From contig JAFNXL010000015.1 of the NCBI GenBank assembly GCA_017379075.1, positions 103,214-167,213 on the forward strand: a stretch of DNA of 64,000 nucleotides. The letters are read 5' to 3'. A program made the translations under genes and the position numbers. Positions 4,392 to 59,779 of the stretch are shown in pieces. Origin of the DNA: Bacteroidaceae bacterium. Its GTDB lineage: Bacteria > Bacteroidota > Bacteroidia > Bacteroidales > Bacteroidaceae. Below the pieces are notes generated by a model that was not told the origin of the DNA, searched no databases, and was given only the letters and a program-made list of their open reading frames with translations. The stretch's first letter is position 1; every line of letters begins with the position of its first letter.

Positions 4392-4457
4392 AAGCTATCT
4401 CCTCAGGCAAGATAAGCTATCTCCTCAGCCCAAGTAAGCTATCTTACTTTTTTCTGC
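4392..4457 (+). repeat. 22-bp-period repeat array, three units
   Basis: AAGCTATCT begins at 4392, 4414 and 4436, exactly 22 bp apart. The first two units share AAGCTATCTCCTCAG. The 7-bp linkers are GCAAGAT and CCCAAGT. The last unit forms a perfect hairpin, AAGTAAG-CTAT-CTTACTT (4432-4449), followed by Ts. The rest of the 4256-4509 gap shows no gene. Confidence 0.75.
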
Positions 4458-4509
4458 CATTTTTCCCAGTGTCTTTTCCTAATTTCAGTAGACGGTTTTG
4501 TTGAGGACA

Positions 4510-5634
4510 TCATAAGGATATGAATTTCCCATCACGCATTATCCATTTCTTGTCACTACTGGAAATATAGATATCTTTTCCATTCATTGAAAAAGTGATA
4601 GATTTAAGATTTTCAGTAATGGATTCGTTTAACGGAATCCAATCTATAGGGCGGCCGTCTTTATGGTAAGATATAGCATACAGACGACTATTTTGCATAG
4701 AAAACCCTTCTTCATCGCTTATATCTCCCATAGCAATAAAAGCAATGTCATTCTTTTCTAAACTTACTTTTGAACAAGCGGCAAATATCGCATCAACATT
4801 ATATAATTCACAATCTCTTGGCGCATCCGGAATATAATATAATGAGGGTATACTTTCATGATCCAAAACAACGGCCTCCCCATTATACGGATATCCATTC
4901 CCTTGCAATGTGCGTGGGAAAAACGACCAAAATTTCCTCATTTGTTCCGGGAACGTCCATGATTCTGGTACACCGGACTTCTCTGGTATTCTGATAATCG
5001 GAGAAAAATGGTAGTTGATTTCTTTCTCGATTTTTCCGTCTTTCGTGATCGTGAATTTGTTTTCAGGTAAAACGCTGTCTGATGATTCGTGTTGAACAAC
5101 AATATGATTCTCACCGGCATTATATGTCGCCTGAAAAGACAAATCATTGTCATCCTCATAACCTAACATAGCACAGTCTATGGCTTCCCCGTTTTCTTTG
5201 TATGTAATCATTGCTAAACCAGAGTATTCACATTGCCATTTGCGCGGTTCGTTATTTGTTTTAAGAAACAATGTTAAATGTTTATCTTTATGTATGTAAT
5301 ATCCAGGTGTGAAATACATATCCCAGTTGTTATCCTTGTCATACAATTCATTTGGGATAAAGACCTTGCATATTGAATCCGGAATAGAACTAGGTTTAAT
5401 ATTCTTTGGCAAGAATACTGGTTTACCATCCTGTATGGGAATCTCTTTGGTCTCTTGGAAAAGAGTCAGGAAATTCAAGAAATGTTCTTTTTCAACACAG
5501 TCATAAAGACTTCCCTTGCATACGGTGTCTGTGTCAAAAATACGTTTTGCGTTTCCTACAAAGTTGGAAAAATCTTGTCCCATAACTGATATAGGACATA
5601 AGGCAAGGACTAAAAGAATTGCGACAATATTCAT
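4510..5634 (-). CDS. Uncharacterised exported protein
   Basis: A 374-residue protein I do not recognise. It has a clear signal peptide (MNIVAILLVLALCPISVMG, cleavage near residue 20) and no later membrane helix, so it is predicted periplasmic or surface. The body is rich in aromatic and charged residues and in short beta-like stretches such as WDMYFTPGYYIHKD and VVQHESSD. The C-terminal half repeats patterns like IAFIAMGDISDEEGFSM and ITFSMNGKDIYISSS, suggesting a beta-propeller or beta-sandwich, but no motif is diagnostic. It follows 5656-6204 after 21 bp on the same strand, probably the last gene of a four-gene AT-rich run. AT-rich codon use contrasts with the neighbouring housekeeping genes and hints at acquisition by transfer. 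Confidence 0.7.
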   Translation of the reverse strand: MNIVAILLVLALCPISVMGQDFSNFVGNAKRIFDTDTVCKGSLYDCVEKEHFLNFLTLFQETKEIPIQDGKPVFLPKNIKPSSIPDSICKVFIPNELYDKDNNWDMYFTPGYYIHKDKHLTLFLKTNNEPRKWQCEYSGLAMITYKENGEAIDCAMLGYEDDNDLSFQATYNAGENHIVVQHESSDSVLPENKFTITKDGKIEKEINYHFSPIIRIPEKSGVPESWTFPEQMRKFWSFFPRTLQGNGYPYNGEAVVLDHESIPSLYYIPDAPRDCELYNVDAIFAACSKVSLEKNDIAFIAMGDISDEEGFSMQNSRLYAISYHKDGRPIDWIPLNESITENLKSITFSMNGKDIYISSSDKKWIMRDGKFISL

Positions 5635-5655
5635 AATTTCTCGAATACAGATTTT

Positions 5656-6204
5656 TCACTGCAAGCCACGTTCCATCAATTTAAAAATAATAATTGTTGA
5701 GCTTATTACCCAGATGAGCGTAATAAGATGCCATACAATGTGTTTCTTTCGTGTTTCCTTTTCAAACTTTTTGAAATATTTCTCAAATTTATTTTTTTTC
5801 TCTGTATAAAACCAATTGGCGAGCATTACACAGAACCCCAATGAGAAATATATGATTTTTGTATACGTTTTCATATCGCCTTCGGCATACCAGTTTTCAC
5901 GTCCTGTCAATATCGTAAACAGATAGAATAACACGATACTGGTCATGATCAGACTTACCATCATTACCCTATCTGAGAGCCTTCTACGATAAAAAGTCGG
6001 GTCCTTTCTTTTATTATCTTTATAGGAAAACATTTGTTTGTACTCTTCCACGGTATATCCCAGCTTCTTTAATCTTTTTACGACAAATGGCAATTTGTAA
6101 AAGCAATTGTCAAAGAGCCAATTAATGGGTTTGTCTAACGGATCCATATTCGCCCATTTAAAGATAGAATAATATAGTCTGTTATATAATTCTTCAATAA
6201 TCAT
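5656..6204 (-). CDS. Uncharacterised multi-pass membrane protein
   Basis: A 182-residue protein of unknown function. A cytoplasmic-looking N-terminal stretch of about 75 residues, rich in Lys and Arg, is followed by hydrophobic helices at about 80-100 (MVSLIMTSIVLFYLFTIL), 117-135 (IIYFSLGFCVMLANWFY) and 158-176 (ITLIWVISSTIIIF). A charged loop (KKNKFEKYFKKFEKETRKK) lies between the last two. Its ATG overlaps the stop of the upstream gene in an ATGA arrangement (6201-6204), a strong sign of translational coupling and a joint role with that membrane-anchored partner. No catalytic motif is visible. Confidence 0.7.
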   Translation of the reverse strand: MIIEELYNRLYYSIFKWANMDPLDKPINWLFDNCFYKLPFVVKRLKKLGYTVEEYKQMFSYKDNKRKDPTFYRRRLSDRVMMVSLIMTSIVLFYLFTILTGRENWYAEGDMKTYTKIIYFSLGFCVMLANWFYTEKKNKFEKYFKKFEKETRKKHIVWHLITLIWVISSTIIIFKLMERGLQ

Positions 6205-7046
6205 AATTTTATTATTTTACTTTTGCGTTTATAGCCAGAGCCTTCAGGAAAATCTTTCTCCAAGGCTAATCCAAACTCATCTTCATACTGGTCTCTCCAG
6301 GATTTTAACTCGATGGGAGTAGGAATATGAAGCATTTCAATAAACTCAAGCAAGTTTTCGTATTTTAATGGGCCATATAAGTCCGTTTTTGTGCGGCTGA
6401 CAATCCAATAGTAGGATTTTTCGCTATCAAAGATTTTCCTTTGTCCTTTAAGATCGTACCTGCATAACGGATATTCTTTAACGGGCATGCCATCAACCTT
6501 TCTCCCTGGCCTCAAATGCGAGAGTCCTAATATGTCACCTGGATTTTTAACTTCTACTATTAACCAATTTTTTTCAAAAGAATATCGTTGAACATATCCA
6601 ATATTTATCTTCTCGCTTAACGTGGTCCTTTTCCCAGATGGTTCACATGCAACGAAGCTGATTAAAGTGTCAACGTGCCCATCAGTTCTGTGTACCGGGA
6701 TTTTAACTTTTACGCAAGGCCATGATAGATATGTTTTTGCATAAACATCTTTTACTAAAGTGTCTCTGGTCTGCCACAAATTAGCGGGCGATGTTGGGAA
6801 AATAACGGAGTCGGTGCTGTTGTCAAAAAAACAACTGTCAATGTCTGATGACAAACATAGCCGCGGATTCTCCAATTCAAAAAGATTCCATCCCACACTC
6901 GGCATATCATAAGTCCCTTCTTTTGCAAACCAATCATTCAAACTGGCAATAGCCCACACGATCATAATGGCTATATACAAAAATGGAAGGGAAAAAATAA
7001 AAATAAATCCTCCTGCAATAAGCCAGTTTCTCACTTTTCTTTTCAT
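6201..7046 (-). CDS. Uncharacterised membrane-anchored protein
   Basis: A 281-residue protein with one N-terminal membrane helix (about residues 9-33, LIAGGFIFIFSLPFLYIAI) and a soluble extracytoplasmic domain. It ends in a motif reminiscent of small envelope proteins that monitor their own state: YYWIVSRTKTDLYGPLKYEN followed by LLEFIEMLHIP. The likeness to DUF3997-like lipoproteins is from memory only. It is coupled to the downstream membrane protein through an ATGA overlap, and 7089-7670 lies 42 bp upstream on the same strand. AT-rich composition matches its neighbours. Function unknown. Confidence 0.7.
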   Translation of the reverse strand: MKRKVRNWLIAGGFIFIFSLPFLYIAIMIVWAIASLNDWFAKEGTYDMPSVGWNLFELENPRLCLSSDIDSCFFDNSTDSVIFPTSPANLWQTRDTLVKDVYAKTYLSWPCVKVKIPVHRTDGHVDTLISFVACEPSGKRTTLSEKINIGYVQRYSFEKNWLIVEVKNPGDILGLSHLRPGRKVDGMPVKEYPLCRYDLKGQRKIFDSEKSYYWIVSRTKTDLYGPLKYENLLEFIEMLHIPTPIELKSWRDQYEDEFGLALEKDFPEGSGYKRKSKIIKL

Positions 7047-7088
7047 GGAAGTGCTAACCTAATGTGTAAAAAATGACATGACGCTATC

Positions 7089-8690: not shown

Positions 8691-8802
8691 AGAATAATAG
8701 TATTTAACACACAAAAACATGGGATTTGATGAATACATCATATACGAGTTGTGAAATGTTACATATTGGGGCTGAAAATGCGTTCAACGTTTGATGTCAT
8801 TC

Positions 8803-8871
8803 GGACGCTGCACGCAGACGTCCCTACCCTCTCATTGCTCATTGCTCACAACTTATAACTCATAACTCAAA
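8803..8871 (+). repeat. Imperfect palindrome plus GCTCA/ACTCA microrepeats
   Basis: A 26-bp sequence (8803-8828) with arms GGACGCTGC and CAGACGTCC recurs identically and in the same orientation at 52035-52060. Bases 8830-8871 are short repeats of the type CTCATTGCTCA and AACTCATAACTC. Inverted counterparts (GATGAGTGATGAG) lie at 9148-9180 on the other side of the 276-bp element. Confidence 0.6.
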
Positions 8872-9147
8872 AATCTGTCGCATCTGCGTCATCCGTGTGC
8901 CAATGAAAATTCTTTACAAAACCGTATTTTTGTATAAATCCAGCAGGAAAGTCGAAAGTGCCCAGTTGGAAAATTTTTATTTCCCTGTTGGAAAATTATT
9001 TTTTCTCAGTTGGAAAATCAAATTTTCGCAGTAGGGCAATATTAGACGACTTTTTGGTTCGCTTTTGAACTATTCCAAGCGGTTTTTGTTCATTTTGACA
9101 CCATGTGCGGTTCGGCAGTTAAAAGTAAAAATGTTTGACAGTGAGCG
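8872..9147 (+). repeat. 276-bp dispersed element, copy A
   Basis: Matches the reverse complement of 52075-52350 along its whole length, with identical total length. Conserved landmarks in order: head AATCTGTCGCATCTGCGTC, ACAAAACCGTATTTTTGTAT, the 22-bp-period array (8944-9031), CGCAGTAGGGCAATATTA, TTTTTGTTCATTTTGA and tail GTAAAAATGTTTGACAGTGA. The central-right part has diverged by substitutions without net length change. It contains no credible ORF and lies between the 7915-8607 gene and waaA. Confidence 0.85.
8944..9031 (+). repeat. 22-bp-period array inside element A, four units
   Basis: Units begin at 8944, 8966, 8988 and 9010. The last three start TTGGAAAAT; the first is a variant (CAGGAAAGT). 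Units hold imperfect hairpins such as GAAAATCAAATTTTC. Confidence 0.8.
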
Positions 9148-9240
9148 ATGAGTGATGAGTCTTGAGTTATGAGTTTTTTCGACAAAAGAACAGAAGGACA
9201 TGTTTTCTCTTTTGAATCTTATGTTCTTATGTCAAATCTC

Positions 9241-9297
9241 ATTGCTCACGGCTCACTACTCACTACTCAAAAATCTGTCGTATTTGCGTCATCGGCG
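9241..9297 (+). repeat. Second GCTCA-microrepeat and head motif
   Basis: CTCATTGCTCAC and ACTCACTACTC are followed by AAAAATCTGTCGTATTTGCG (9272 onward), the same head as in the 276-bp element. The 205-bp element beginning just downstream therefore appears to belong to a related superfamily. Confidence 0.55.
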
Positions 9298-9306
9298 TTC
9301 CATTGT

Positions 9307-9511
9307 CCACATTTGTCAAAAAACAAGAAAAGGGGATTTTGGACCGAGTGAAGAAAATCCAAAAATTACCAACCCTCTTATAGTCAAGCAAATACAAAAC
9401 CATGAAAAACTCTTCGAAAACACACAAAAAAAAGACTTAAGTGTTTCTTGAGTTTTACTTAAGTCTTTCCGAAGTAACACTTAAGTGTTTCTGCAAAAAC
9501 ACTTAAGTGTT
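9307..9511 (+). repeat. 205-bp dispersed element, copy A
   Basis: Matches the reverse complement of 32146-32350, again with identical length. The ends are well conserved (CCACATTTGTCAAAAAA... and the CTTAAG array), while the middle is diverged but alignable (GTGAAGAAA, TATAGTCA). No credible ORF. Confidence 0.8.
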
Positions 9512-9522
9512 ATTTTTGGATA
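9435..9522 (+). repeat. 22-bp-period CTTAAG array, four units
   Basis: ACTTAAGT begins at 9435, 9457, 9479 and 9501, exactly 22 bp apart. The first two units pair as AAAGACTTAAGT and ACTTAAGTCTTT; the last two are each the 14-bp palindrome AACACTTAAGTGTT. The array ends shortly before the waaA stop codon. Confidence 0.85.
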
Positions 9523-9560
9523 AATTTTATGTAAAGATTTTTCGCAGAAGCCAGACGTCA

Positions 9561-10793
9561 CTACACATCCAACTGCAAGGTGCTGAATATGGTTTCTGTG
9601 GCTCCGGCATTGGACTTAATATAGTCGCGACACAACGCTCCCTTCTTTGCACAAAGACGGGGATTGCCCGTAAGTTTGTCCACCAAGGCATTGAACAACG
9701 GCTGGCCGGTTATCTCAAAACAGCCGCCCATTCTGAGCAAATCCTGCGCCTCGCGGAACCCTTTGTTGTTGGGGCCGAACAAAACGGGGATGCCATATAC
9801 CGCCGCTTCAGGCACATTGTGAATGCCGGCACCGAATCCACCACCCACGTATGCCAGATTGCCGTAACGGTATATGCTGCTGAGCAGACCGAAACAGTTG
9901 ATGATGAGGCAATCTGCCTGCGCCACCGTAGCTTCATCGGCCTCGGTATAGCGCACAAAGGGACGTTTCAACTTGGACTCTATGTGCTTCAGATGTGCCT
10001 CATCAATGACATGCGGTGCAAGAATGAGCTTCATCTGCGGATGGTTATTGAAATAGGGGATAATCAGTTCCTCATCCTGCGGCCATGAACTACCAGCCAC
10101 AAAAATGGACTTGGCATCCTTGCCAAAGGTTTCCACCAAGGGCAGTTCGCGGCTCTTGGCCTGGATATCCAGCACGCGGTCAAAACGGGTATCGCCCACA
10201 ATGGTCACATTGTCAGTGATGTGCAACGTGGACAAAAGGCGGGCGCTCTCCTCGTCCTGCACAAAAAAGTGGTCCACAAGACGCAACACGGCAGAGTAGC
10301 CCTTTCCATACCATTTAAAAAACACCTTGTTGGCACGGAAAATGCTGCTGATGCTATATACGGGAATGTTGTAATGCTTGCAAGCCCTGAGAAAGTTCCA
10401 CCAAAACTCATACTTGATGAAAAACGCCATCTCGGGACGCACCAAACGGAAAAAGCTCATGACATTGCCAGGGGTGTCAAACGGCAGATAGCAGATGACA
10501 TCCGCCCCTTCGTAGTTCTTGCGCACCTCGTAACCAGAGGGTGAGAAAAACGTAAGAAGAATCTTATACTCGGGATGCTCCCTGCGGAAACGCTCAATCA
10601 AAGGACGGCCCTGCTCAAACTCGCCTAAACTGGCGGCATGGAACCAGACATAACGGGCATTACGATCAATTTTCTCGCGCAGAATTTTGAACGTATCTAT
10701 GTGGCCACGCACAATGGCGCCCGCCTTCTTATGGAAAGGCGAGACCACTATGACTGCCAGCATATAAAGAAAGATGGCCAGCGAATACATCAT
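9561..10793 (-). CDS. waaA: 3-deoxy-D-manno-octulosonic acid (Kdo) transferase
   Basis: GT30 glycosyltransferase (KdtA) that adds Kdo from CMP-Kdo to the lipid A precursor on the inner face of the inner membrane, essential for LPS core assembly. The 410 residues match the family size. An N-terminal membrane anchor (residues 2-19) is followed by the Rossmann-like N domain with [10 protein letters not shown], where E58 aligns with the catalytic glutamate of the family. The second domain carries [14 protein letters not shown] and the CMP-Kdo site region [20 protein letters not shown]. Its ATG overlaps the gltX stop (ATGA at 10793-10790), so the two genes are translationally coupled. Confidence 0.95.
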
Positions 10794-14554: not shown

Positions 14555-14555
14555 G

Positions 14556-27881: not shown

Positions 27882-27991
27882 GAAAATCTCAAATTCCTCG
27901 GGAGGAAAATATTTTTTTGTCGCGAGGAAAAATTATTTTTTCTTCTTGAAAATTCCCTGTTCCCAGTTGGATTGTTTTTATCCTTCATAAT
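27882..27991 (+). repeat. 22-bp-period GGAAAA-type array, five degenerate units
   Basis: The G of GAAAA words falls at 27882, 27905, 27927 and 27948, with TTGGATTG aligned at 27970, a mean spacing of 22. The words GAGGAAAAT and TTGGATTGTTTTTATCC resemble the TTGGAAAAT array of the 276-bp element. The remainder of the 27771-28319 gap holds no gene that I can support; TTGGCACAAAAA occurs twice (near 27857 and 28008). Confidence 0.6.
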
Positions 27992-28255: not shown

Positions 28256-28263
28256 TAAATTTG
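28256..28263 (+). promoter_or_regulatory. -7 box of first discoidin gene
   Basis: TAAATTTG, 56 bp before the ATG at 28320. The frame extends 5' to 28263, overlapping the promoter, so the inner ATG is used. Confidence 0.55.
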
Positions 28264-28319
28264 TGCGCAATTATTCAAAAAAACGACAAATTATTAACCA
28301 TCAAAAAACAAAAACATTC

Positions 28320-32145: not shown

Positions 32146-32350
32146 AACACTTAAGTGTTTCCGCGAAATCAGTTAAGTGTTACTTCAAAAAGACTTAAGT
32201 AAAACTCAAGAAACACTTAAGTCTTTTTTCCGCAAGTTTTCAAAAGGAACTTCAGTACTTCATATACACCTGATTATAAACACATTAAACATACACTTAT
32301 TTCTTCATTACTCTCCAAAATCCTCTTTTCTTATTTTTTGACAAATGTGG
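32146..32350 (-). repeat. 205-bp dispersed element, copy B
   Basis: Reverse-complement partner of 9307-9511 with the same length to the base. The CTTAAG array words begin at 32149, 32171, 32193 and 32215, and each aligns exactly with a word in copy A. It lies between the two discoidin genes, after the terminator. Bases 32351-32520 are AT-rich leader without a gene. Confidence 0.8.
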
Positions 32351-32526
32351 AAACGTACCGTATTCCACCTTATAAGTCACAATTTGAATTTTAATTGCTT
32401 TCCGTATCCGACTCACGTTTTCCATACGGTATCAACATTAATCGTACGCATTTTAAAAACATAAATATGAAATCGTTTCAAAATTTCTTAAAAAAACTAA
32501 AAACACGAGGTTGACACTTAAACCTT

Positions 32527-32558
32527 TTTGTACGTTTCAATTCTATTTCATATCTTTG
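32527..32558 (+). promoter_or_regulatory. Bacteroidetes promoter of second discoidin gene
   Basis: -33 TTTG (32527-32530), 20-bp spacer, -7 TATCTTTG (32551-32558), then 48 bp to the ATG. Full consensus. Confidence 0.8.
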
Positions 32559-32606
32559 CACGCAATTTAAAAGTAACATCATTTATTAACCAAACATTAC
32601 ACATTC

Positions 32607-36176: not shown

Positions 36177-36200
36177 ACACCATTCCCCTCTAAATCATCT

Positions 36201-36236
36201 AAAAACAGCCACCCCATTGCGGGATGGCTGTTTTTT
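36201..36236 (+). terminator. Terminator after second discoidin gene
   Basis: AAAAACAGCCA, CCC, loop, GGG, TGGCTGTTTTTT, 25 bp past the stop. Confidence 0.9.
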
Positions 36237-36282
36237 CACTTTTTTTATGATTTAAAATCATTACAATTCAAAAGAATTGCCG

Positions 36283-36290
36283 TATCTTTG
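36283..36290 (+). promoter_or_regulatory. -7 box of M60-like gene
   Basis: TATCTTTG, 31 bp before the ATG. Confidence 0.65.
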
Positions 36291-36321
36291 CCATGCAACT
36301 AACATTTAAAACCATATTTAT

Positions 36322-39300: not shown

Positions 39301-40476
39301 TATGCCAACTATTTTGTCACCACCACCCAGGCAGACATCGATGCAGCCCGTGCCTATATGCAAAAGTATCCCAAGAAGTTGAACAACATCATGTTCATTG
39401 ACGACCACATTGCCACAAACCAAAAGGCGAACCCGAATAACATCTTCAATGCTGTACCCGCAGCTAACGGTCTGAAAGTGAACTGCTGTACCTACAACGG
39501 TTCCAAGATGGGAACTGCTGGAGACCTGGGAATGTACACAGACTTCAAGGGCACATACGAGAACGACGGATATTACTATAACTGGAACAACTATTCACGC
39601 CAAGTAAAAGTTGTCGGAACCGGAGCTGTTGGCTTCAAGGTCTACAACAACGAAGGCAGACTGGTTTACCTCTCTAACAAAAAGACCTTCACGCTGCCCA
39701 AGGATGTGGCCGAGAACGGTTTTATCATCAAGGCTGCTGAAGGAAACGGTGCAGACGTCCTTGTTCCCAGAGGTTCCAAGAATGTAATGATTGACGTATA
39801 TTATCCCGGACAGGCAGAAAGCCGCCTGTTATATGCTGATGAAAACTTTGAAGCACTGCCCACCAATGCAATAGGATTTGTACGCGCAGAACAGGAACAG
39901 GCCACGCCCGAAGAGCTGAAGGCCCTCGCCAATATTGTGGACGAAACCGGCCACGCCAGCATCATCCGCATAGACGGTAACCAGGCTTGGAACAACCCGG
40001 CCAACATCCAGGCAGACCAAGTTGTCTTTACTAAAGACATTGAAGGCTATGCAGCACTAAACCTGCCCTTCATTGTAAGCAAGGCAGAAGTTCCCGGTCT
40101 GAAAACAGCCACCTATATCGATGGAACGTTGGCAATTGAAGACGCTGAGTCTGTAGATGCCGGACAGCCTGTCATCCTGCAAGGAAATGCAGACATCACC
40201 GTGGCACAAACAGCGGTAGTCAGCGGAAACTATAAGGCGCAAGAAAACATCACCATCCTTGCCGCTGACGGACAAAGTGTTGAAACGGCTGCACTGGCAA
40301 GCCCCTTCACCTATAACATGCAGAATGCCACAGGAATCTTCGGCATCAACGAAAAGAACGAAGAGGCTTTAGGAAAGGCAGGTGCCATATACGATCTGCA
40401 AGGAAGACGTCTGAAACAACTTCCTGTCCAAAAAGGCATTTATCTGATTAACGGTAAGAAAGTCGTTGTAAAATAG
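36322..40476 (+). CDS. Secreted M60-like (enhancin-type) metallopeptidase with T9SS-type tail
   Basis: A 1384-residue secreted zinc peptidase; the M60-like family cleaves mucins and other O-glycoproteins. The signal peptide ends PTWAQ. The N-terminal half (about 30-500) consists of beta-rich repeats resembling ricin-type or other carbohydrate-binding folds (GKWYVLFNAYTSSYAKEG, GRYLIKSGLGNYFLQM, GYTLRNGKTGRFLND). The peptidase region spans about 580-1010, with the catalytic site HEIGH at 835-839 and the downstream zinc-ligand glutamate in GTMEASN (E852), fitting HEXXH-X(8,28)-E. The C terminus AGAIYDLQGRRLKQ ... GIYLINGKKVVVK is a T9SS-type tail. Mucin as substrate is inference. Confidence 0.9.
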   Translation: MIKKLTFLFAAMLFTLTGLSPTWAQTNEFTGKIISVGENATTLEEGKWYVLFNAYTSSYAKEGDNNTLASTNINPNNSNASTNAGYLIKLEQQEDGRYLIKSGLGNYFLQMGNNRNNGTAAEPTEIAPYTISPINGAEGHFTLMSTMKNGLKYYMQANNGALTGHSTSGGANSTRDWVFKQASVTTADALTGKDYVNYMLNKGGLVRLTNRRSSKYSLSDNGTNTIGQITDKNNLQQVWILEKAGTGYTLRNGKTGRFLNDDDNFRSPSSSATTIYIQFSPNNTGTSSWINLSEDDSFSGNVCLNENGDNPTNLFKWTANGDAGSDWTISEVTNFTEEEIMEGLLANSKYKPVESGKIYNIVNMGYGSVIYENTNGNQVRCQNADKSKFSQYWRLINENGKYYIQNVLSERYIKKQNGAFSQIYSTSATKSVSANGFTLSKTDNDTEHTYAIVDQNPAGLHCDASSNVVGWYYTDNNNSIWGFQPVEVTEEEIAEARKSYVEFEELSKNLSAYNTHMQALFSDLAFTTLKEEIAALTDEELAANADFAALSTVLQGIVLKVKHNDWKQFTDETTGYTADYERFFRIADYKVYSHHQKMSWEDQTDMSNSFGRLSNPTGITGYAGDIVYIFVDGAVSSDCILAAETVTGTSNTGSQTILKPGLNAIMLGDQSNLYIFYELQDPNKYLANYPDVKIHIQGGRLNGYWDATRGMTNADWKLLQKDLLKESPVLNLKTENLVFCMDAVEVKKAEPNEMEGLMHVWNTILTNEERYMGLEEFEGRFRNIWNCFSVDHNYMYASTYGTYYHWNTLGAVMNYHNMTHQGEGNEGGGMWGPSHEIGHNHQKTICVVGTMEASNNMFSNINQFEQGISTTRYSSPIANFEEFNNGKPWSTRDISISTRMYFQLYLYFHEMKNDTTFLPRLFKELRKRPINKHGKGWNGSLVSGENVGGYATQGSQDYLHFAKVVCDVAQADLSEFFESYGMFIPVENHFVGDYANYFVTTTQADIDAARAYMQKYPKKLNNIMFIDDHIATNQKANPNNIFNAVPAANGLKVNCCTYNGSKMGTAGDLGMYTDFKGTYENDGYYYNWNNYSRQVKVVGTGAVGFKVYNNEGRLVYLSNKKTFTLPKDVAENGFIIKAAEGNGADVLVPRGSKNVMIDVYYPGQAESRLLYADENFEALPTNAIGFVRAEQEQATPEELKALANIVDETGHASIIRIDGNQAWNNPANIQADQVVFTKDIEGYAALNLPFIVSKAEVPGLKTATYIDGTLAIEDAESVDAGQPVILQGNADITVAQTAVVSGNYKAQENITILAADGQSVETAALASPFTYNMQNATGIFGINEKNEEALGKAGAIYDLQGRRLKQLPVQKGIYLINGKKVVVK

Positions 40477-51591: not shown

Positions 51592-51615
51592 GAGAAGTTT
51601 AATAAATCATGTCCA

Positions 51616-51650
51616 AATCCCAGAATCGTTAAAAGTCCGATTCTGGGATT
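51616..51650 (+). terminator. Terminator after 50998-51591 gene
   Basis: AATCCCAGAATCG and CGATTCTGGGATT, perfect 13-bp stem with a 9-nt loop, 24 bp past the stop. Confidence 0.9.
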
Positions 51651-51720
51651 ATTGTTTCTACAATTCAAAGGATACATTCGATTATATCGAGAGACGATAT
51701 TTAAAGCGCCTTCAAAGACG

Positions 51721-51808
51721 CAATGCGGTGCGTGAGCAAAGTCAATGCGGTGCGATGACAAAGACAATGCGGTGCGTGAGCGAATGCAATGCAGTGACTT
51801 TATCGGGG
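51721..51808 (+). repeat. 22-bp-period array CAATGCGGTG, four units
   Basis: CAATGC words begin at 51721, 51743, 51765 and 51787. Units are a 15-bp word (CAATGCGGTGCGTGA in units 1 and 3) plus a 7-bp linker (GCAAAGT, ACAAAGA, GCGAATG). The last unit switches to TGACTTT. An inverted copy of the word (CACCGCATTGCC) follows at 51810-51820. The same word recurs at 59579. Confidence 0.85.
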
Positions 51809-51832
51809 CACCGCATTGCCTTATGGCGAGAA

Positions 51833-51922
51833 GATATACTGCATGGGCCGATGCAGATATACTGCAACGGCTGTAGAAGATATCTTTAACGGGCAACGCA
51901 GTACTACTGCTATGGGAATTGA
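51833..51922 (+). repeat. Second array, GATATACTGCA, period 22-23
   Basis: Words begin at 51833, 51856, 51879 and 51901. Units 2 and 4 carry GCAG-loop-CTGC hairpins and unit 3 carries the palindrome AAGATATCTT at the equivalent place. Confidence 0.65.
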
Positions 51923-52034
51923 GATTTGTTTTACTCACGCAAATCGCGCCAATCCCGCCAAAAGAATTAGACAGAAGAACATTTTGAGCGAGATTCGCGA
52001 GATTGGCGTGAGATTATAAATCTATGTGTTCCCC

Positions 52035-52060
52035 GGACGCTGCACGCAGACGTCCCTACC
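52035..52060 (+). repeat. 26-bp imperfect palindrome, second copy
   Basis: Identical to 8803-8828 in the same orientation, although the neighbouring 276-bp element is inverted between the two sites. GCTCA microrepeats follow (52061-52080). Confidence 0.7.
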
Positions 52061-52074
52061 TCTTCACCGCTCAC

Positions 52075-52350
52075 CGCTCACTGTCAAACATTTTTACTTT
52101 TGTCCACAAACCAGACATTGGTTTCAAAATGAACAAAAACCACCAAAAATAGTTCAAAAACAAACCTAAAAACTCACTTAATATTGCCCTACTGCGAAAT
52201 TTTGATTTTCCAACTGAGAAAAAATAATTTTCCAGTTGAGAAATAAAAATTTTCCAACTGGGCACTTTCGACTTTCCAGCTGGATTTATACAAAAATACG
52301 GTTTTGTAAATAATTTTAATGGCACACGGATGACGCAGATGCGACAGATT
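52075..52350 (-). repeat. 276-bp dispersed element, copy B
   Basis: Inverted partner of 8872-9147 with the same length. It includes a four-unit 22-bp array: ATTTTCC words at 52205, 52227 and 52249, and ACTTTCC at 52271. Its head runs into GACGCAGATGCGACAGATTA, a GCAGAT-type repeat. It lies upstream of the giant gene, and no ORF within it is credible. Confidence 0.85.
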
Positions 52351-52542
52351 ACCGCAGATTTGTGAGCTGTAAGCAATGAGTAACGAGCACACATATGTCA
52401 TCCAGGCCATACCATATTTTATAATAATGTGAGCTCTACAAACTAAAATGCTTATAGTGTTCAGGCAAAAAGTCTTTGAAACAATTATCGCTATACTCAT
52501 CACATTTTCTTCCATAATTTTCCTCAATTCATTAATTTTTAA

Positions 52543-52675: not shown

Positions 52676-55600
52676 ATGAGAGTAAAACTACACAAAGTTT
52701 TCTTGTCAGGACTTTTGTGCCTGATGAGCACCTCTGTTTGGGCGCTTGATCAAGTTGACGGCGTCTATCAGATTGGCTCTGCCGAAGACCTACGGGAATT
52801 CGCAGAAATCGTTGCAGGAGGCGACAATGCGGTGGATGCCGTTTTGACCGCCGACATTGTGTGTGCTGCCGACCAGCCTATGATCGGTGTGAATGAATCG
52901 CGTTATGCAGGAACATTCGACGGTGCCGGACATACCATTACGCTGAATGCCTATGCCGAAGCGGACGGACAGGCTCTGTTCCGCAATGTAACCTGGACAG
53001 GTGAAATCAAAAACCTCATCGTAGACGGAACCATCACTACCAACTACAAGTACGCAGCAGGTTTCGTAGCATGGAACGAGGGAGGTCGCATTCTGAACTG
53101 CGTTAGTAAAGTAACTATCAAGTCCGGTATTGCCGGTGACGGAACCCATGCAGGTTTCGTAGCCATCAACAATCTGGGTTCTGTGGTTTCCAACTGTTTG
53201 TCAATGGCATCTATCCACAGTAACGCAACGACAAGCGTAGGCGGTATCCATGGCTGGACTGACAATCGCTGCATTGTAACCAACAACTTGGTGATTGCTG
53301 ACATCCAGTTAGCCGATCCAGGCGATTCACACAGTATTTGCCGTAACCCGGGAAAGACTGCAGAAGGACTCCTGGCCAACAACTTCTATCTGACAAAGCT
53401 GTCTGCCACAACTGATACAGAAGGTACCCAGATCACAGAAGAACAGCTGAAGAGCGGTGCTGTCTGCTTCATGCTGAACCACGACCAGAGCAACATCCAA
53501 TGGACTCAGAACATCGGAGAGGATGATTACCCCGTGCCCTTCAAGACCCGCAAGCAGGTGTATGCCGACACTCCGGCCCTCTGCTCTGGTCAGTTCCCCG
53601 ATGGAGCTACTCCCACCTTCAGCAACACCGACACTGGTGTACAGCACGAGTCTCACCTCACTTGCGAGGATGGCAACTGCGACGCTTGTAAATATTGGAA
53701 TCCCACTCAAGTTGAGCGCGACGAGAACCGTGCCTATATGTTGAAGACTGTTGAGGACATGGACTGGTTTGCAAAATACTTTACCTATGGTGGTGAACAT
53801 CAAAATGCAGCTCTTTATGCCGACATCCATCACGGTGAAGGCCGTAAGGAATTCCTGAACCACAGCAACTGGTACTACGGAACCTTCGACGGCCGTGGTC
53901 ACACCATTGACATTGAATGGGCAGAGGTGACTACAGAATATAATGGTCTGGTTCCCGTATTGGGCGGCGGCGGTGTAATCCGTAATCTTAACATGACCGG
54001 TTCTATCTCATCTCAGAACCACTTTAACGCCAGTTTCATTGGCCAGACCAAGGGTGCTTCATTGCTTGAGAACTGTGTAAGTTCAGTGAACATTACCAGC
54101 ACTTTCTCTGGAGACAACACAAACGGTGGTCTTTGTGCGGTGAACAACGGTACTTTTGCCGTATATCGTAACTGTATTTATTCGGGTTCCATATATTCAG
54201 AACAAGGTTCCAACTGTGGCGGTCTCATCGGTTGGAGCAGTGGAACATCCGTGATGGAAAACGTGGCCATGATTGGTTCCATAAATGTGATGGATGGCGA
54301 CAACAACATCATCTCTCGTAACCCTGGTATGGTAGACTATACCGGTGGTGTATATTGTGTAGACGATCCTTACGGCAATGTAGCTCCTGGCGTAACAGTG
54401 CTGGGTCCCGATGCTGCAGCTTCCGGTGAATTGTGCTACGCCCTGAATGGTGCAGAAGGCACTGCTTTCAAACAGACACTTGGCACCGACGACCATCCAT
54501 GGCCTTTCGGCGACCACGCAATGGTCTATGCAGTACCTTCCGATGGTTTCCGTTGCGACGGTACGCCACAGGGTGATGTACAGTATAGCAATGATGCTGC
54601 TGGCGTGGAAATTCCCGAGCACACCTACGTAGACGGTTTCTGCGAAGTCTGCGGCAATATTGATCCCGAATATCTGCAACCCAACGAAGAGGGTTTCTAT
54701 GAGATTTCAACTGACATGCAATTGGCTTGGTTCTCACAGAAGATTGCTCAAGCTGAAGACCGTTCTTTGAACGTGAAGCTGATGAACGATATTGATATGG
54801 AAGCCGCTGCCAATGAACGTTTCATCGCCATCGGTACAGAGTCTTCTCCTTATACCGGAACATTCGACGGTGACTTCCACACCATCGATTATCTTGAAGT
54901 GAACCAGCCCTCTACCCGTGGTGTCGGTCTGATTGGTGCCGTTGCAGGTCCCGCTGTAATTGAGAACCTTACCTTGGGTGCTAACTGTAGACTCATCGGT
55001 ATGGGCTATGTGGGTCTTATCGGTTTCTCAACACCTGCTGGTGGAACCGTAACTTTCACCAACTTGGGTAACCTGGGTTATGTTGAATGTACCACTGGCG
55101 CCAATGCTGGCGGTTTGGTAGGTTGCTGTATGTCAAGTGCATGTACCTTCATCATCACCAATTGCTACTCTATGGCTACCATCGTAGGTACCAAAGAAAA
55201 TGGTGCTTTCTCTGGTTGGTTGGGCAGCAATGCTGTGCTCACCAACTGCTGGGCAGGAACTGAAGTGGCAGGTACTGAAAGTGGCAAGGAATTCTGCCGT
55301 TTCAACACCAACGCCACCTTTACTAACTGCTGGACCGTACAGGGAACTCAGGTGAACAACTTCACTGTCGATCAGATTGAGACTGGCCAGTTGGCATGGC
55401 GCATGAACGGTGAAAAGTTCACTTCTCCCATTTGGTACCAGAACCTCAACGAGGGCGATACACACCCTGTTGCCGACTCAACACGTGGTGTGGTATATTA
55501 TGTATATGAAACCTATGGTTCTGTAGCAAATTCAGAAGACTACGCAGCTCTTGTTGAACTCATGCAGCGCGAGGCAGAGGAGTACACTGAAGACCTCATT

Positions 55601-58600
55601 GCACAGCAGGCAATCATTGATGAATATTTGGGACAGGCAGAAGCGCTTCCCGCTTGGGAGTACGAAAGTGTTCAGCAGAACCTCGATTCACTGTCCAAGT
55701 ACTATGGTCTGCTCAAAGAGACAAAGGCCAAGGTAAAGGCAAGTGCCGATGCTTATAAAAAGTATGTGGCAAAGGCTGAAGAACTGATTGCATACCTCGA
55801 AAGCCATGATGACTTTGAAGGTCCCGACCGTGATGACTTGGATGCATACTTACAGAGTGACGAAGAACCCAGCGAACTGAATCCTTGCGGTGGATACTTC
55901 TATATTGTCGACAATATGTTGCTCTCTATAGAGGAAATCGAAGCTGAAATTGCACGTCTGGAGGCATGGTTGCAGACAGCCATCAACAATGGTTACATGC
56001 CCGGCAGTGAGGTTACCGCTTTGCTGGCCAATGGAAAGTTTGCCGACGGATTCAACGGATGGCAGGGTGTAACCGGTTCTGGAGCCAAGGCTTATGCCGC
56101 TCAGAACAACATGGTTGGAGCAGAAGCTTGGAACAAAACATTTGACATGTACCAGAAGGTTGCTGTGAGCAAGCCCGGTTACTATATGCTCACCATGAAC
56201 GCCGGCTACCGTCCAAGCAACGACCAATATAGTGTGAACCACATCGCACAGCTCTATGCTGGCGAAAACAACACTTATATTCCCACTGTTTTCGAAACCA
56301 AGATCTCTAAGGACGAGGCCATTGACCAGGTGAACGCCAACATCACTGGTGAGGTTAGCGACCTGGTTATTTCCAGCGATCCTATGGCTGAAGTAGCAGA
56401 TACTGCCTACTACGCTATGCAAGGTCAGCTTTCTGTTGCCATTGCAGCCAACAGCAACCGCGCACTCACACACATTATTACATATGTGGAAGAAGGCGAT
56501 TCACTGCTCGTAGGTATCCGCAACCAGGGTAGCGGTTACGGCTCAGACTGGACCGGTTTCGCTAACACCAAGCTTACCTATTTAGGTGAAGCAGAAGACG
56601 AAGGTACAGAACCCGCTATGGACGAGGTTATTGCCGGCCAGGTGGCTCGCGCCAATACCATCCTCGCAGATTATGTGGCTGACGCTTCTGACCTTTACAT
56701 GAAGAATCCTAACTTCAGCCAGGCGTTGAGAGGCGAGTTGGAAGCTCTTATAATGGAAGCGACAACCGTTTCTGGCACAGAGGCCAAGTACACTCTCATA
56801 AAGAAGTTCTCTGATGTCTTCAACGAAATTATTGTTTGTAAGCGTGCATACGTTGAGTTCTTCTCTGCATCTCTTGCAATGGAAGATGCCACCTACTCTC
56901 TGATTGATGTACCCGAAGTTGACATTGATGCGCTTGCCACTATGGTTGAAGATATGGTAATAGCTTACACAGAAGGTTCTTATAGTACAGAAGAAGCTTT
57001 GGCAAAGGTAGCTGAAATAAGTACATTGCCCGTCATGCCCGCCATGGTTGATGGCATCTACCAGATTGAGACCAAACTGCACATGGCTACTTACTCTGCT
57101 ATCGTAAACGGTATTAACAACGCTGCTAATGCTGTGATGACAAACGATATTGACATGACAGGTGTCAGCCTCATTCCTATCGGTAAGGATGCTGCCGGTC
57201 ACCGTTTCATTGGTACATTTGACGGACAGGGTCACAAGTTCAGCAACCTCAACATCGAAGTCAGTGGCAACTATTTCGGTGTGTTCGGTTGTGTGGGTGC
57301 TGGTGCAACCATCAAGAACTTCATCCTCGACAACACCTGCCGTATCTACGGTGCAGGAAGCTACGGTGGTATCATCGGAGGTGCTAACGAAGCAGGAACC
57401 ATCACCGTCCAGCAGTTGGGTAACGAGGGTACAGTTGAAGCAGGAACAAACGAGGCCGCCGGTATCATCGGTACCAACATGGGTTCTGCTGCTACATACA
57501 ACATTGAAAACTGTTACGTAACCGGTACAATCACTGGTCCTGGCAACATGGCCGCCATCTGTTCATGGACCGGCGGTAAGGGATATGTGAAGAACTGCTG
57601 GAGCATTGCTCAGGTTGCCAACTACGACGGCACCAACTACTTCTATCGCAACACCGATATCACTGCTACCAACTGCTACGACATCATGGGCGCTTCTGAC
57701 GAGGTTGTCGCTTTGGATACTGCACTTCTGAAGACCGGTGAACTCACCTATAAGCTGAACGGCAGCAGCAGTAAGAACGCTGTATGGTTGCAGACTATCG
57801 GCACCGACACAATTCCCCGTCTGTTCCAGGGTGACACGGTTTACTACTACAACAAGGAATTCATCAACGAAAAGCCCGTTATCGAGCTGAACGCTTATGC
57901 TTATGACCTGGTTACAACATCAACAGAGAACGATGTAACCATCACTTACTCTCTGAACGCTCCTGCCAAGGCAGCAGAAATCCGTTTCTTCAACGGTGAG
58001 GCTCTCGCTTACACCGCAGTCCTCTCCGGAGAACAGCTCCTGCCCGGCAGACACTCTGTAATGGTTGAGAACAGCTTGCTGCCCGCCAAGGGTACTGCCC
58101 TCACTTACGAGGTTGCCGTTACCGCTATCGGTGTGCTCGAACCCACCAAGGTTGGTGAAAGTGTACCTGTTACCACTCCTTATGGTATGGCCATCAACAC
58201 AATGCCCGAAAGCAGCGCATTCGGTACCATGTATCTGACACAGGGCGAACGCACAGACGCCACAGCCGCTGGTCTGTATGCTTACACTCCCACATTGCAG
58301 TGTGTAAATGCAACCGCTTACACCGGTGGTCTTGACATGCTCGCTACTGACAGCGCCACCATGCTTGCCAACGATACACTGGCAATCCGCATCAACGACT
58401 CTTATGCTCCTCTTGCTCCCAAGACTGTTCGTCTGAGCGAAGACGGCCGTCTGTTCTTAGGTATGGCCAACGGATTGGGCAGCCCCATCTACGAGGCTAA
58501 TCCCGAGAACCTGACCGAGGCATGGACTCCCGTGTTCACTGGCGGTACTTTGGATAAATACGGCGTAACATGGGTTGGCGATGACAAGCAGGCTGGTATC

Positions 58601-59383
58601 GTAGTAAGCTTCGCAACTGCCGGAACTGGCAAGGATCTGAAGCTCTATACATTGGCTGGCGAACGCACAGACAGCGCTTCAACCGCTAAGGATTACTATG
58701 CATACTACTACAACCTTGGCGATGCCAAGTCTTGGACAACTGCTCCCAGCGGTCAGATTGACTCTTTGATGAACCAGTACACCAGCACGCCTCACAACGT
58801 GAACATCGAAACCGACGGACAGGGTGGTTTGTGGTACATCCAGCAGGCTCCTTCTGCAAGCAAGGCGACTCCCACCTTGAAGCACTACGACGCTAATGGT
58901 AAGGAAGACTTCTCCAACACTGCAAATGTTTATCCTGGTGCCGCTATGGCTAAGTACAACGGTGGCGAAATCATCGCTCATCCCATCAACAACAGCACCA
59001 TCGGTATCTACGCTGTGAACTATGATCCCAACGATGCAGGCAAGATCTTCCCCGAAGGAATCTATACTGTTCCCGTTAGCGAGTCTGTAATCACCGCATT
59101 GGCATTTGACTATGCAGGTAACCTGTACGTGGCTTCTAAGGACTCTAAGAAGATGAGCTGCTACGCTATTCCTAACCTCACCGGCGACAAGACCGCCACA
59201 CAGGAATTCGTCACTCCTTCTTCTAAACGTACCAACTTCACAGTAGGTGAATTGCTGACTGGCATTGAAGATGTGAACACCACTAACACCAAGAATGAGA
59301 TCTACACCATCGGTGGTGTACGCGTTCAAAAGGCTCAGAACGGTGTGAATATCATCAACGGAAAGAAGGTTATGGTGAAGTAA
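52676..59383 (+). CDS. Giant secreted beta-helix protein with T9SS-type tail
   Basis: A 2235-residue secreted protein, signal peptide ending SVWA. Four related beta-helix modules with GLUG-like signatures lie at about 28-285, 351-615, 671-928 and 1457-1718. Each opens with a helix of the YQIGSAEDLREFAEI type and carries a GTFDG-G-H-T turn (YAGTFDGAGHTI, YYGTFDGRGHTI, YTGTFDGDFHTI, FIGTFDGQGHKF). Short CxxC units separate modules 1 to 3 (GNCDACKYW, HTYVDGFCEVCGNID). Helical segments (about 945-1118, 1315-1455) flank a possible carbohydrate-binding domain (1118-1308). The last third looks beta-rich. The tail ends VNIINGKKVMVK. No catalytic motif is visible; adhesion or glycan binding is inferred. 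Confidence 0.85.
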   Translation: MRVKLHKVFLSGLLCLMSTSVWALDQVDGVYQIGSAEDLREFAEIVAGGDNAVDAVLTADIVCAADQPMIGVNESRYAGTFDGAGHTITLNAYAEADGQALFRNVTWTGEIKNLIVDGTITTNYKYAAGFVAWNEGGRILNCVSKVTIKSGIAGDGTHAGFVAINNLGSVVSNCLSMASIHSNATTSVGGIHGWTDNRCIVTNNLVIADIQLADPGDSHSICRNPGKTAEGLLANNFYLTKLSATTDTEGTQITEEQLKSGAVCFMLNHDQSNIQWTQNIGEDDYPVPFKTRKQVYADTPALCSGQFPDGATPTFSNTDTGVQHESHLTCEDGNCDACKYWNPTQVERDENRAYMLKTVEDMDWFAKYFTYGGEHQNAALYADIHHGEGRKEFLNHSNWYYGTFDGRGHTIDIEWAEVTTEYNGLVPVLGGGGVIRNLNMTGSISSQNHFNASFIGQTKGASLLENCVSSVNITSTFSGDNTNGGLCAVNNGTFAVYRNCIYSGSIYSEQGSNCGGLIGWSSGTSVMENVAMIGSINVMDGDNNIISRNPGMVDYTGGVYCVDDPYGNVAPGVTVLGPDAAASGELCYALNGAEGTAFKQTLGTDDHPWPFGDHAMVYAVPSDGFRCDGTPQGDVQYSNDAAGVEIPEHTYVDGFCEVCGNIDPEYLQPNEEGFYEISTDMQLAWFSQKIAQAEDRSLNVKLMNDIDMEAAANERFIAIGTESSPYTGTFDGDFHTIDYLEVNQPSTRGVGLIGAVAGPAVIENLTLGANCRLIGMGYVGLIGFSTPAGGTVTFTNLGNLGYVECTTGANAGGLVGCCMSSACTFIITNCYSMATIVGTKENGAFSGWLGSNAVLTNCWAGTEVAGTESGKEFCRFNTNATFTNCWTVQGTQVNNFTVDQIETGQLAWRMNGEKFTSPIWYQNLNEGDTHPVADSTRGVVYYVYETYGSVANSEDYAALVELMQREAEEYTEDLIAQQAIIDEYLGQAEALPAWEYESVQQNLDSLSKYYGLLKETKAKVKASADAYKKYVAKAEELIAYLESHDDFEGPDRDDLDAYLQSDEEPSELNPCGGYFYIVDNMLLSIEEIEAEIARLEAWLQTAINNGYMPGSEVTALLANGKFADGFNGWQGVTGSGAKAYAAQNNMVGAEAWNKTFDMYQKVAVSKPGYYMLTMNAGYRPSNDQYSVNHIAQLYAGENNTYIPTVFETKISKDEAIDQVNANITGEVSDLVISSDPMAEVADTAYYAMQGQLSVAIAANSNRALTHIITYVEEGDSLLVGIRNQGSGYGSDWTGFANTKLTYLGEAEDEGTEPAMDEVIAGQVARANTILADYVADASDLYMKNPNFSQALRGELEALIMEATTVSGTEAKYTLIKKFSDVFNEIIVCKRAYVEFFSASLAMEDATYSLIDVPEVDIDALATMVEDMVIAYTEGSYSTEEALAKVAEISTLPVMPAMVDGIYQIETKLHMATYSAIVNGINNAANAVMTNDIDMTGVSLIPIGKDAAGHRFIGTFDGQGHKFSNLNIEVSGNYFGVFGCVGAGATIKNFILDNTCRIYGAGSYGGIIGGANEAGTITVQQLGNEGTVEAGTNEAAGIIGTNMGSAATYNIENCYVTGTITGPGNMAAICSWTGGKGYVKNCWSIAQVANYDGTNYFYRNTDITATNCYDIMGASDEVVALDTALLKTGELTYKLNGSSSKNAVWLQTIGTDTIPRLFQGDTVYYYNKEFINEKPVIELNAYAYDLVTTSTENDVTITYSLNAPAKAAEIRFFNGEALAYTAVLSGEQLLPGRHSVMVENSLLPAKGTALTYEVAVTAIGVLEPTKVGESVPVTTPYGMAINTMPESSAFGTMYLTQGERTDATAAGLYAYTPTLQCVNATAYTGGLDMLATDSATMLANDTLAIRINDSYAPLAPKTVRLSEDGRLFLGMANGLGSPIYEANPENLTEAWTPVFTGGTLDKYGVTWVGDDKQAGIVVSFATAGTGKDLKLYTLAGERTDSASTAKDYYAYYYNLGDAKSWTTAPSGQIDSLMNQYTSTPHNVNIETDGQGGLWYIQQAPSASKATPTLKHYDANGKEDFSNTANVYPGAAMAKYNGGEIIAHPINNSTIGIYAVNYDPNDAGKIFPEGIYTVPVSESVITALAFDYAGNLYVASKDSKKMSCYAIPNLTGDKTATQEFVTPSSKRTNFTVGELLTGIEDVNTTNTKNEIYTIGGVRVQKAQNGVNIINGKKVMVK

Positions 59384-59412
59384 TTTGAGATACTTCATAA
59401 TCTGATAATTGG

Positions 59413-59444
59413 GGATGCGTCCGATAACGGTCGCATCCTTTTTT
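59413..59444 (+). terminator. Terminator after the giant gene
   Basis: GGATGCG and CGCATCC (with CCGATAACGG in the loop able to extend pairing) followed by TTTTTT. Confidence 0.88.
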
Positions 59445-59556
59445 ACACATGGGCATCACGACAGATTGTCTACATGAAAATAATATTCTGCAGATTCTGC
59501 AGTAAACCGTCATTTTGGTGTACCATTAAAAGACGAGCGTTGAGCCCAAAAACATG

Positions 59557-59644
59557 CAATGTATTGCATTGGCAAAGACAATGCGGTGCGTGAACTAAGA
59601 CAAAGCATTGATCAGGCCAAGTCAATGCTTTGACTTTTTGGATG
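59557..59644 (+). repeat. 22-bp-period array CAATG, four units
   Basis: Units begin at 59557, 59579, 59601 and 59623. Linkers are GCAAAGA, ACTAAGA and GCCAAGT. The last unit forms the hairpin AAGTCAA-TGCT-TTGACTT (59619-59636) plus Ts, in the same phase and geometry as the hairpin of the array at 4392. Confidence 0.82.
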
Positions 59645-59691
59645 AAAAACTGGCTTTTCAAAGCAGACATACTGCGCGCCATTAAAAAACG

Positions 59692-59779
59692 AAAGGCAGT
59701 TTCTCCGCAAAGTAGAGGCGATTCATTGCGGGATGAAAGGCCTTTCGTCGGCAAAGTAAAGGCGATGCTCTGAAACACG
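59692..59779 (+). repeat. 22-bp-period array AAAGGC, four units
   Basis: AAAGGC or AGAGGC begins at 59692, 59714, 59736 and 59758. Units 1 and 3 end in linker GCAAAGT. Unit 3 is the hairpin GATGAAA-GGCC-TTTCGTC. The rest of 59445-59932 holds no gene that I can support. Confidence 0.75.

Follow-up and report, generated by a model that had tools for sequence, protein, structure and literature searches.

In a 64,000-nucleotide stretch of a Bacteroidaceae genome (assembly GCA_017379075.1, contig JAFNXL010000015.1, positions 103,214 to 167,213; hereafter the window, G000:C12:103214-167213 in our indexing), short words are repeated head to tail between genes with a fixed period of 22 bp, the word itself differing from site to site. 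This regularity, met in gut bacteria of the Bacteroides-Prevotella group, is real across the bacterial family and clearly beyond chance. A pooled sample of 2.62 Mb from the source genome and its relatives contained 63 intergenic period-22 arrays, which fall into 38 unrelated word clusters, while all other periods between 12 and 40 bp yielded 28 arrays in the same material, 5 of them at 21 and 7 at 23. The combination of a fixed period with locus-specific words, proposed in an original prediction made from the window alone, hence extends far beyond it. As an explanation we tentatively favor DNA-binding sites that are stacked two helical turns apart and read by dimers.

Tandem structure is significant at all ten sites that had been reported for the window. 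At the eight to which an exact 22-bp period had been ascribed, lag 22 is the best of lags 12 to 33 and the coordinates are as first given. Hereby, the lag-22 identities in coordinate order are 0.87, 0.72, 0.75, 0.64, 0.72, 0.71, 0.58 and 0.49, with a shuffle p of 0.0005 for the best of lags 21 to 23, which is the floor for 2000 shuffles. The remaining two had been described as near 22. One of them, at 27882-27991, is degenerate and barely at 22 (identity 0.44 at lag 22, 0.43 at 21 and at 24; p = 0.002), while that at 51833-51922 has a period of 23 (0.55 at lag 23 vs 0.31 at lag 22; p = 0.0005). The ten are not all separate loci, as sites 8944 and 52205 belong to two copies of one dispersed module, E1, and sites 9435 and 32149 to two copies of another, E2. 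The arrays are the following:

4392-4444, unstranded: 22-bp array, word AAGCTATCT, 2.4 units.
8961-9035, minus strand: 22-bp array, word CCAGTTGG with AT-rich linkers, within E1 copy 1 (site 8944).
9435-9511, unstranded: 22-bp array, palindromic word AACACTTAAGTGTT, 3.5 units, within E2 copy 1.
27882-27991, unstranded: degenerate array, words CTCGGGAGG and TCGCGAGG.
32148-32222, unstranded: 22-bp array, word ACTTAAGT, its second copy in the window (site 32149).
51721-51796, unstranded: 22-bp array, word CAATGCGGTG, linker ending in GCAAAG, 3.5 units.
51829-51883, unstranded: 23-bp array, word GCAGATATACTGC (site 51833).
52188-52285, plus strand: 22-bp array, word CCAACTGG/CCAGTTGG, within E1 copy 2 (site 52205).
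59557-59637, unstranded: 22-bp array, word CAATGC..TTG, four diverged units.
59692-59772, unstranded: 22-bp array, word AAAGGC, four diverged units.

Segments of the window scoring at least 13 number six at lag 22 and one at lag 23, with none at lags 15 to 21 or 24 to 43; five 50-bp block shuffles gave about 0. The arrays at 59557 and 59692 score below 13 and so stand outside this count. A proposed common grammar of a 15-bp word plus a 7-bp linker near GCAAAGT fits, by eye, the CAATGC/AAAGGC arrays at 51721, 59557 and 59692, not the other arrays.

The source genome (G000; 3.0 Mb in 106 contigs) is that of a ruminant-gut-type Bacteroidaceae. Its PriA finds its best matches in Bacteroidaceae metagenome-assembled genomes (MAGs) of water buffalo and water deer (RGIG7333 at 97% over residues 1-529, RGIG9105 at 87% over the whole protein), and the type IX secretion system (T9SS) genes GldK and GldM are present. 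The pooled material, which consists of samples of genomes (140 loci), comprises a core of 453 kb from G000 including the window, 709 kb from 18 genomes of the same genus and, from the 40 genomes whose PriA matched best, 755 kb surrounding that gene (L092-L131, loci picked by PriA), to which 140 kb each from the family genomes G037 and G041, 100 kb from G040 and 327 kb from 20 others were added. Only intergenic arrays were counted, simple and heptamer repeats being discarded; a period-21 excess consisted mostly of such heptamer repeats (7/14/21) and was removed by this filter. Gene calls are longest-open-reading-frame (ORF) approximations, with an ORF mask of 150 aa for the period counts and word clusters and of 110 aa for the analyses of the G040 tract, arm/linker identity, gene context and palindrome spacing described below. 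Words were clustered at 16 of 22 identical positions; 1000 shuffled consensus words peaked at 15. Some G000 stretches were picked on contigs already matching window modules, which inflates the counts of E1, E2 and CAATGC in that genome, while most stretches of other genomes were taken at preset positions and G040 was revisited for its array richness. Stretches of other genomes that had been selected for matches are excluded from the totals of 63 and 28. Among the 63, the array of L092 is the orthologue of the 9435 array in the relative G031, and E1/E2 copies are not independent of one another.

Period 22 dominates in each part of the core, with 22 arrays in G000, 18 in the same-genus genomes and 10 in the PriA set, compared to 1, 1 and 2 at period 21, 1, 2 and 4 at period 23, and 0, 5 and 3 at the remaining periods from 12 to 40. 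Two further arrays at 22 come from G037, seven from G040 and four from the 20 other family genomes, which also hold seven at other periods; G041 has none at 22, one at 31 and one at 37. When six extra stretches were included, the score threshold lowered and the ORF mask tightened, G040 yielded ten arrays at 22 and two at 12, the other periods from 12 to 40 being empty. Phocaeicola intestinalis is a carrier as well, with two arrays in L113. A single 40-bp-block shuffle of 2.59 Mb gave no array at 22 and one at 21. Thus, the period is common to the species and the word is not, and the lag-22 excess that the original prediction implied for this genome and its relatives is present in the sampled parts of both. 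In the distant groups (L132-L171 and L072-L091) we found one period-22 array in 1.0 Mb, assigned by elimination to L137 (PriA identity 61%). L132-L171 are distant by PriA, yet some of their records are titled Prevotella or Prevotellaceae, and the clade therefore has no sharp boundary. Palindromic arrays of period 21, perhaps a sister class, occur at L022 7920-8004, L093 913-1007, L061 9533-9602 and L184 5381-5460, one example being TTCCAAACTTTGGAA plus ATGTAC.

Coding repeats or an assembly artefact are of negligible probability as a source of these counts. The arrays counted are intergenic by ORF call and 22 is not a multiple of 3, as the original prediction had pointed out, and the same arrays recur in separately assembled relatives. 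Several contigs do end in or near modules, which repeats are known to cause and to which we attach little weight. The arrays are likewise not clustered regularly interspaced short palindromic repeats (CRISPR), again as predicted, since their 22-bp units adjoin head to tail and no unrelated spacers of spacer length lie between them.

Small inverted repeats had been predicted within many of the units, and they prove common, though not universal. Dyad symmetry is significant at p ≤ 0.05 in 48 of 88 arrays, and 30 of the 88 reach the lowest p attainable with 60 shuffles; a consensus-based palindrome test is passed by 25 of 62. Among the six window arrays in the latter test, those at 9435 and 32148 pass, 8961 gives p = 0.06, and 4392, 51721 and 52188 are far off; in the 88-array test 8961 passes alongside 9435 and 32148. 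At 4392 a near-palindrome, AGATAAGCTATCT, with a 9-bp linker can be made out by eye, and its palindrome test is not significant (p = 0.77). Examples of palindromic words are AACACTTAAGTGTT, AAGACGCGCGTCTT, AACCAGTGACTGGTT, AAGTATTATACTT and AAACAATATTGTTT. Three or more units and 80% pairing are found in 32 arrays; with the ACTTAAGT arrays excluded, 25 remain, in which successive units were compared. Up to 6 bp from the dyad, their identity is mostly 0.79-0.95 (0.71 at the centre), and in the linker, 8-11 bp from the dyad, it is 0.51-0.58. Palindrome arms are hence conserved between units, while linkers drift in sequence at constant length. A second dyad lies in mid-linker, seen in the spacing between the centres of dissimilar palindromes: in G040, 15 spacings are of 11 bp and 9 of 33 bp, in G000 8 and 4, while a larger sample from the distant group is without an 11/33 peak (10 bp: 4; 11 bp: 4; 12 bp: 7; 33 bp: 0). 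The half-sites thus alternate with every helical turn. In one G040 tract (L249 410-658) a word of type AAAC...GTTT gives way to one of type AAGTAT...ATACTT and later returns, the dyads staying, on our reading of the sequence, about 22 bp apart.

The arms also bear on the idea, raised with the original prediction, of a ladder of RNA hairpins, in which the arrays would be transcribed and their stem-loops bound, processed or used as bidirectional terminators. Out of 972 arm pairs 119 are non-complementary (GT 18, AC 12, other 89), so that 30 of the 119 are of wobble type; with wobble mismatches in the minority, DNA-level symmetry fits better than RNA stems. Many units can nevertheless form stems of 5-8 bp with short loops, and long stem-loops are predicted for BrickBuilt, a repeat element compared below, in its description (PMC4596501). 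In consensus folding of E1, the array pairs into a single long hairpin, where the majority of one-sided changes preserve a G-U pair, a kind of fold that the program favors, but RNAalifold assigns it a covariation term of -0.33 kcal/mol and a two-sided change is found in 4 of 45 pairs. Some arrays lie in short convergent gaps, as in L115, where the array fills the gap 7 bp from each ORF, although the excess in such gaps (17 vs about 12 expected) is within chance. A search of the whole window against 4227 Rfam families gave no match at gathering score, and under permissive settings positions 8700-9700 gave 37 matches, none of which reached gathering score, among them a chance-level one to FopS. 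Taken with the non-wobble mismatches and the low covariation, this weakens the hairpin ladder, which we consider improbable.

Two close relatives allow individual arrays to be followed, G032 with 92-94% DNA identity in two blocks and G031 with 81% over a 14.9-kb block and 94% over window positions 2-4464. At 9435, the array of G032 has exactly one 22-bp unit fewer, its remaining 55 bases being identical, and that of G031 matches at 76 of 77 bases. The 4392 array has one extra 22-bp unit in G031, and in G032 the same number of units with the first one altered; its word also builds a second array in G031 (L186 9513-9586). G032 shares conserved flanks with G000 at site 27882, but several of its units there are of CCAACTGG type vs CTCGGGAGG/TCGCGAGG in G000; for G031 no alignment of this stretch was obtained. 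The 32149 array is identical in G032 over 190 of 190 bases (32058-32247) between differing flanks, and at this site G031 has other sequence that includes a period-21 array. E1 at 52205 is retained in both relatives (G031 79%, G032 84%), and the array at 51721 aligned in neither. In the gap that follows the gene at 52676-59383, G000 and G031 have different arrays. Between species, the arrays and words of a given gap are thus replaced, with the period unchanged.

In the explanation we favor, the clearest 22-bp unit would be a dyad site of about 10-18 bp, made of two inverted half-sites, plus a linker whose sequence is free and whose length is fixed. Successive dimers, spaced by exactly two helical turns, would then line up along the same DNA face and be able to touch, and the 22 bp would be measured by the bound protein and not by a DNA copying process. 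Words would change by a concerted shift of both half-sites, as expected if several related binders with different specificities, or one tolerant protein, use the same lattice. Arrays would expand and contract by whole units, and some would spread inside modules built of leader, array and tail. We regard dimer stacking as the best account because of the free linkers of fixed length, the dyads that stay in phase across a word switch and the absence of a clear promoter or gene-end bias, the last of which suggests a role in DNA architecture or in an element's own maintenance, not regulation of one neighbor. The mechanism is plausible, and of the two ideas originally put forward, the evidence speaks more for a protein array along one face of the DNA, with about half of the arrays dyadic, linkers of fixed length and dyads 11 bp apart.

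Several observations weigh against it. The binding protein, its cooperativity and its purpose are inferred. About half of the arrays lack a significant dyad, for instance L045 and, in the window, 4392 and 51721, and the choice of palindrome register favors conserved columns, which inflates the contrast between arms and linkers. The near-identity at 9435 in G031 runs on into the adjoining gene (90, 96, 93 and 88% per 200-bp bin); as G031 identity also varies by block (81 vs 94%), local transfer and not constraint may lie behind it. Neither G032, over the 1.1 kb read, nor G031 yielded the arrays of 59557 and 59692 next to the orthologous gene; the corresponding gap of G031 is occupied by an array of AAGCTATCT, the word of site 4392. 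Array gaps are convergent in 17, divergent in 11 and tandem in 32 of 60 cases, compared to 11.7, 13.2 and 35.1 expected from intergenic length (chi-square about 3, 2 df), which indicates no regulatory role; a promoter or terminator rule was dropped for want of a clear preference in these counts. Finally, Porphyromonas gingivalis has 41-nt repeats that fall outside a 22-23 rule (PMC4596501).

A further-reaching version, in which two-turn dyads throughout the Bacteroidaceae are read, almost regardless of sequence, by one dimeric binder or by several paralogues that diverge fast, giving each genome dozens of sites like centromeres or insulators with species-dependent words, is in our estimation unlikely. 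If a protein does enforce the spacing, a common and overlooked DNA-binding system would exist in dominant gut bacteria, and the changing words would be a natural record of co-evolution between site and reader.

A number of arrays are carried by dispersed modules, of which the window contains four copies:

8906-9140, minus strand: module E1 copy 1, about 235 bp, array in mid-element, from sequence and multi-copy alignment.
52082-52317, plus strand: module E1 copy 2, from alignment.
9273-9543, minus strand: module E2 copy 1, about 270 bp, carrying a ACTTAAGT array, span from alignments.
32114-32351, plus strand: module E2 copy 2.

In an alignment of 19 sequences E1 ends in AAAATTCTTTACA and TTTGACA, which look like direct and not inverted repeats; an empty site with both flanks was found for none of the modules. 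Both modules occur in many copies in G031 and G032, while among 121 sampled family genomes E1 was detected in G000 and G127 only, the latter probably being the same assembly as G031, to judge by contig coordinates that match. G040 has a 540-bp leader-array-tail module of its own. Arrays that share one period are thus embedded in modules that differ between species. Short dispersed modules, GGACGCTGCACGCAGACGTCCCTAC and AATCTGTCGCATCTGCGTCATCCGTGTGCCA, adjoin E1 and E2 (window 8801-8905 and 51929-52080), giving intergenic mosaics, and heptamer arrays CTCATTG / TGAGNNA (period 7/14/21) border modules at window 8831-8869, 9142-9174 and 9252-9269. Such arrays also flank E1/E2 copies elsewhere, and segments of heptamer period with other words occur in relatives; they recall cyanobacterial short tandemly repeated repetitive (STRR) sequences and the heptads of the omega repressor. 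One ACTTAAGT array in G032 seemed to have grown by 198 bp (9 x 22); the sequence shows instead that an unrelated miniature inverted-repeat transposable element (MITE), about 198 bp long, has entered the array. This element has the ends GGYGGTTCTAAAAATT...AATTTTTAGAACCGCC and an apparent CTTAAG duplication and lies in an E2 copy (L253/L259, G032:C81, about 71660-71850), with a relative in L184.

The modules lead to another explanation, namely that the arrays are passengers of non-autonomous mobile elements, a selfish minisatellite like BrickBuilt, in which one ancestral 22-bp array spread with a period that was inherited and not selected, the word being rewritten by concerted evolution and template switching at palindromes. 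The arrays do lie in the middle of E1, of E2 and of the G040 module, and window 51600-52400 has 105 matches within G000. Next to one gene, both G000 and G032 carry E2, which is absent from the roughly 320 bases that the G031 contig extends there, and the differing arrays after the 52676-59383 gene in G000 and G031 fit as well. The middle unit of E1 occurs in both orientations (AGTT/AACT, TGTT/AACA), as inversion between palindrome arms would yield. Neutral copying, however, leaves unexplained why linkers of about 50% identity keep an exact length and why 38 unrelated words remain at 22 without drifting to other lengths, and many arrays in relatives show no recognisable common ends by eye. We rate this selfish origin, the main rival of dimer stacking, as rather unlikely. 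Were it correct, a tandem repeat could hold its length while its sequence is fully rewritten, and BrickBuilt would fall into a much wider class. Selfish spread and dimer stacking can be compatible, if a mobile module uses the array as its own binding site.

BrickBuilt itself is the nearest known relative of the arrays. According to its description (PMC4596501), it is an intergenic minisatellite/MITE of P. gingivalis, reported also from P. gulae, with imperfect 23-nt tandem repeats (up to 22.8 units) flanked by a leader and a tail that are not repetitive; strains differ by whole units, strain ATCC 33277 has 19 copies, and there is no Rfam match. Common to both are an intergenic position, tandem repeats of about two helical turns and several copies per genome; a leader and tail are seen around the repeats in the E1 alignment and the G040 module, whole-unit gain and loss at 9435 and 4392, and, in our own reading, the consensus given there contains head to tail the palindrome CTCATATGAG. 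Whereas BrickBuilt has one species-wide consensus, here several unrelated words per genome are repeated about 2-6 times at period 22. Membership by sequence was rejected: the 23-nt repeat AGAYCATARTATCCTCTCRTRTG has 0 matches in the window at up to 3 mismatches, and the IS5-type inverted ends GAGACCTTTGCA have one 1-mismatch match, at 60222, off the arrays and at chance level (33 of 100 shuffles). The same source mentions 22-, 23- and 41-nt tandem repeats in strain W83, the first two having the lengths seen here in a member of the same bacterial order, with the 22-nt ones mentioned there without positions or sequences (PMC4596501). In the open-access literature we found no account of an array family with a fixed 22-bp period and variable words, BrickBuilt and the W83 mention being nearest. 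The original statement that the arrays fit no known family was nonetheless too strong, as the 23-nt repeat of BrickBuilt is a close analogue (PMC4596501).

Dispersed intergenic palindromes are also typical of repetitive extragenic palindromic (REP) sequences and bacterial interspersed mosaic elements (BIMEs), from which the arrays differ by spacing fixed at 22 bp. Mobilisation of the palindromes by a Y1 (IS200-like) transposase, as for REP-associated tyrosine transposases (RAYTs), would agree with PF01797 matches in G000 (n = 2) and G032 (n = 3). Of ten genomes searched, however, six gave no match, G003 and G042 being the other two with matches; those without a PF01797 match include array-rich G040 (99% complete) and the array-carrying same-genus genomes G012, G016 and G001 (85-92% complete). 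The idea is thus refuted for G040 unless the gene lies in the missing part, and is very improbable overall.

The 22-bp iterons of R6K and the iterons of the lambda origin are tandem sites about two helical turns apart, often by AT-rich DNA, on which initiators stack on one DNA face; they lie at origins with a linked initiator gene, whereas the arrays here are present in many chromosomal copies. A Pfam scan of 14 window proteins, the majority encoded close to arrays, revealed no replication initiator, with 7 of the 14 matching no family. ParR partition arrays and omega-repressor heptads consist of short half-sites, in tandem or inverted, to which polymerising dimers bind; these systems are plasmid-borne, with one word each and adjacent partner genes.

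In the neighbor survey of 62 arrays, 9 lie in predicted ORFs and 4 are without a neighbor on one side. The 4392 array is 148 bp from a penicillinase-repressor-type gene (3798-4244, minus strand). A link to defence was considered and set aside; PADLOC, run on seven neighboring genes, gave one marginal CARF match (E = 0.00075), to the penicillinase-repressor-like protein. Three large proteins are encoded in a row at window 28263-40476, two with F5/8 type C domains and one with an M60 peptidase and a ricin-type lectin domain; the first has a homologue close to an E1 copy in G031 and to an E2 copy in G032. At window 61013-62026, a LuxR-type helix-turn-helix is fused to a hemerythrin domain.

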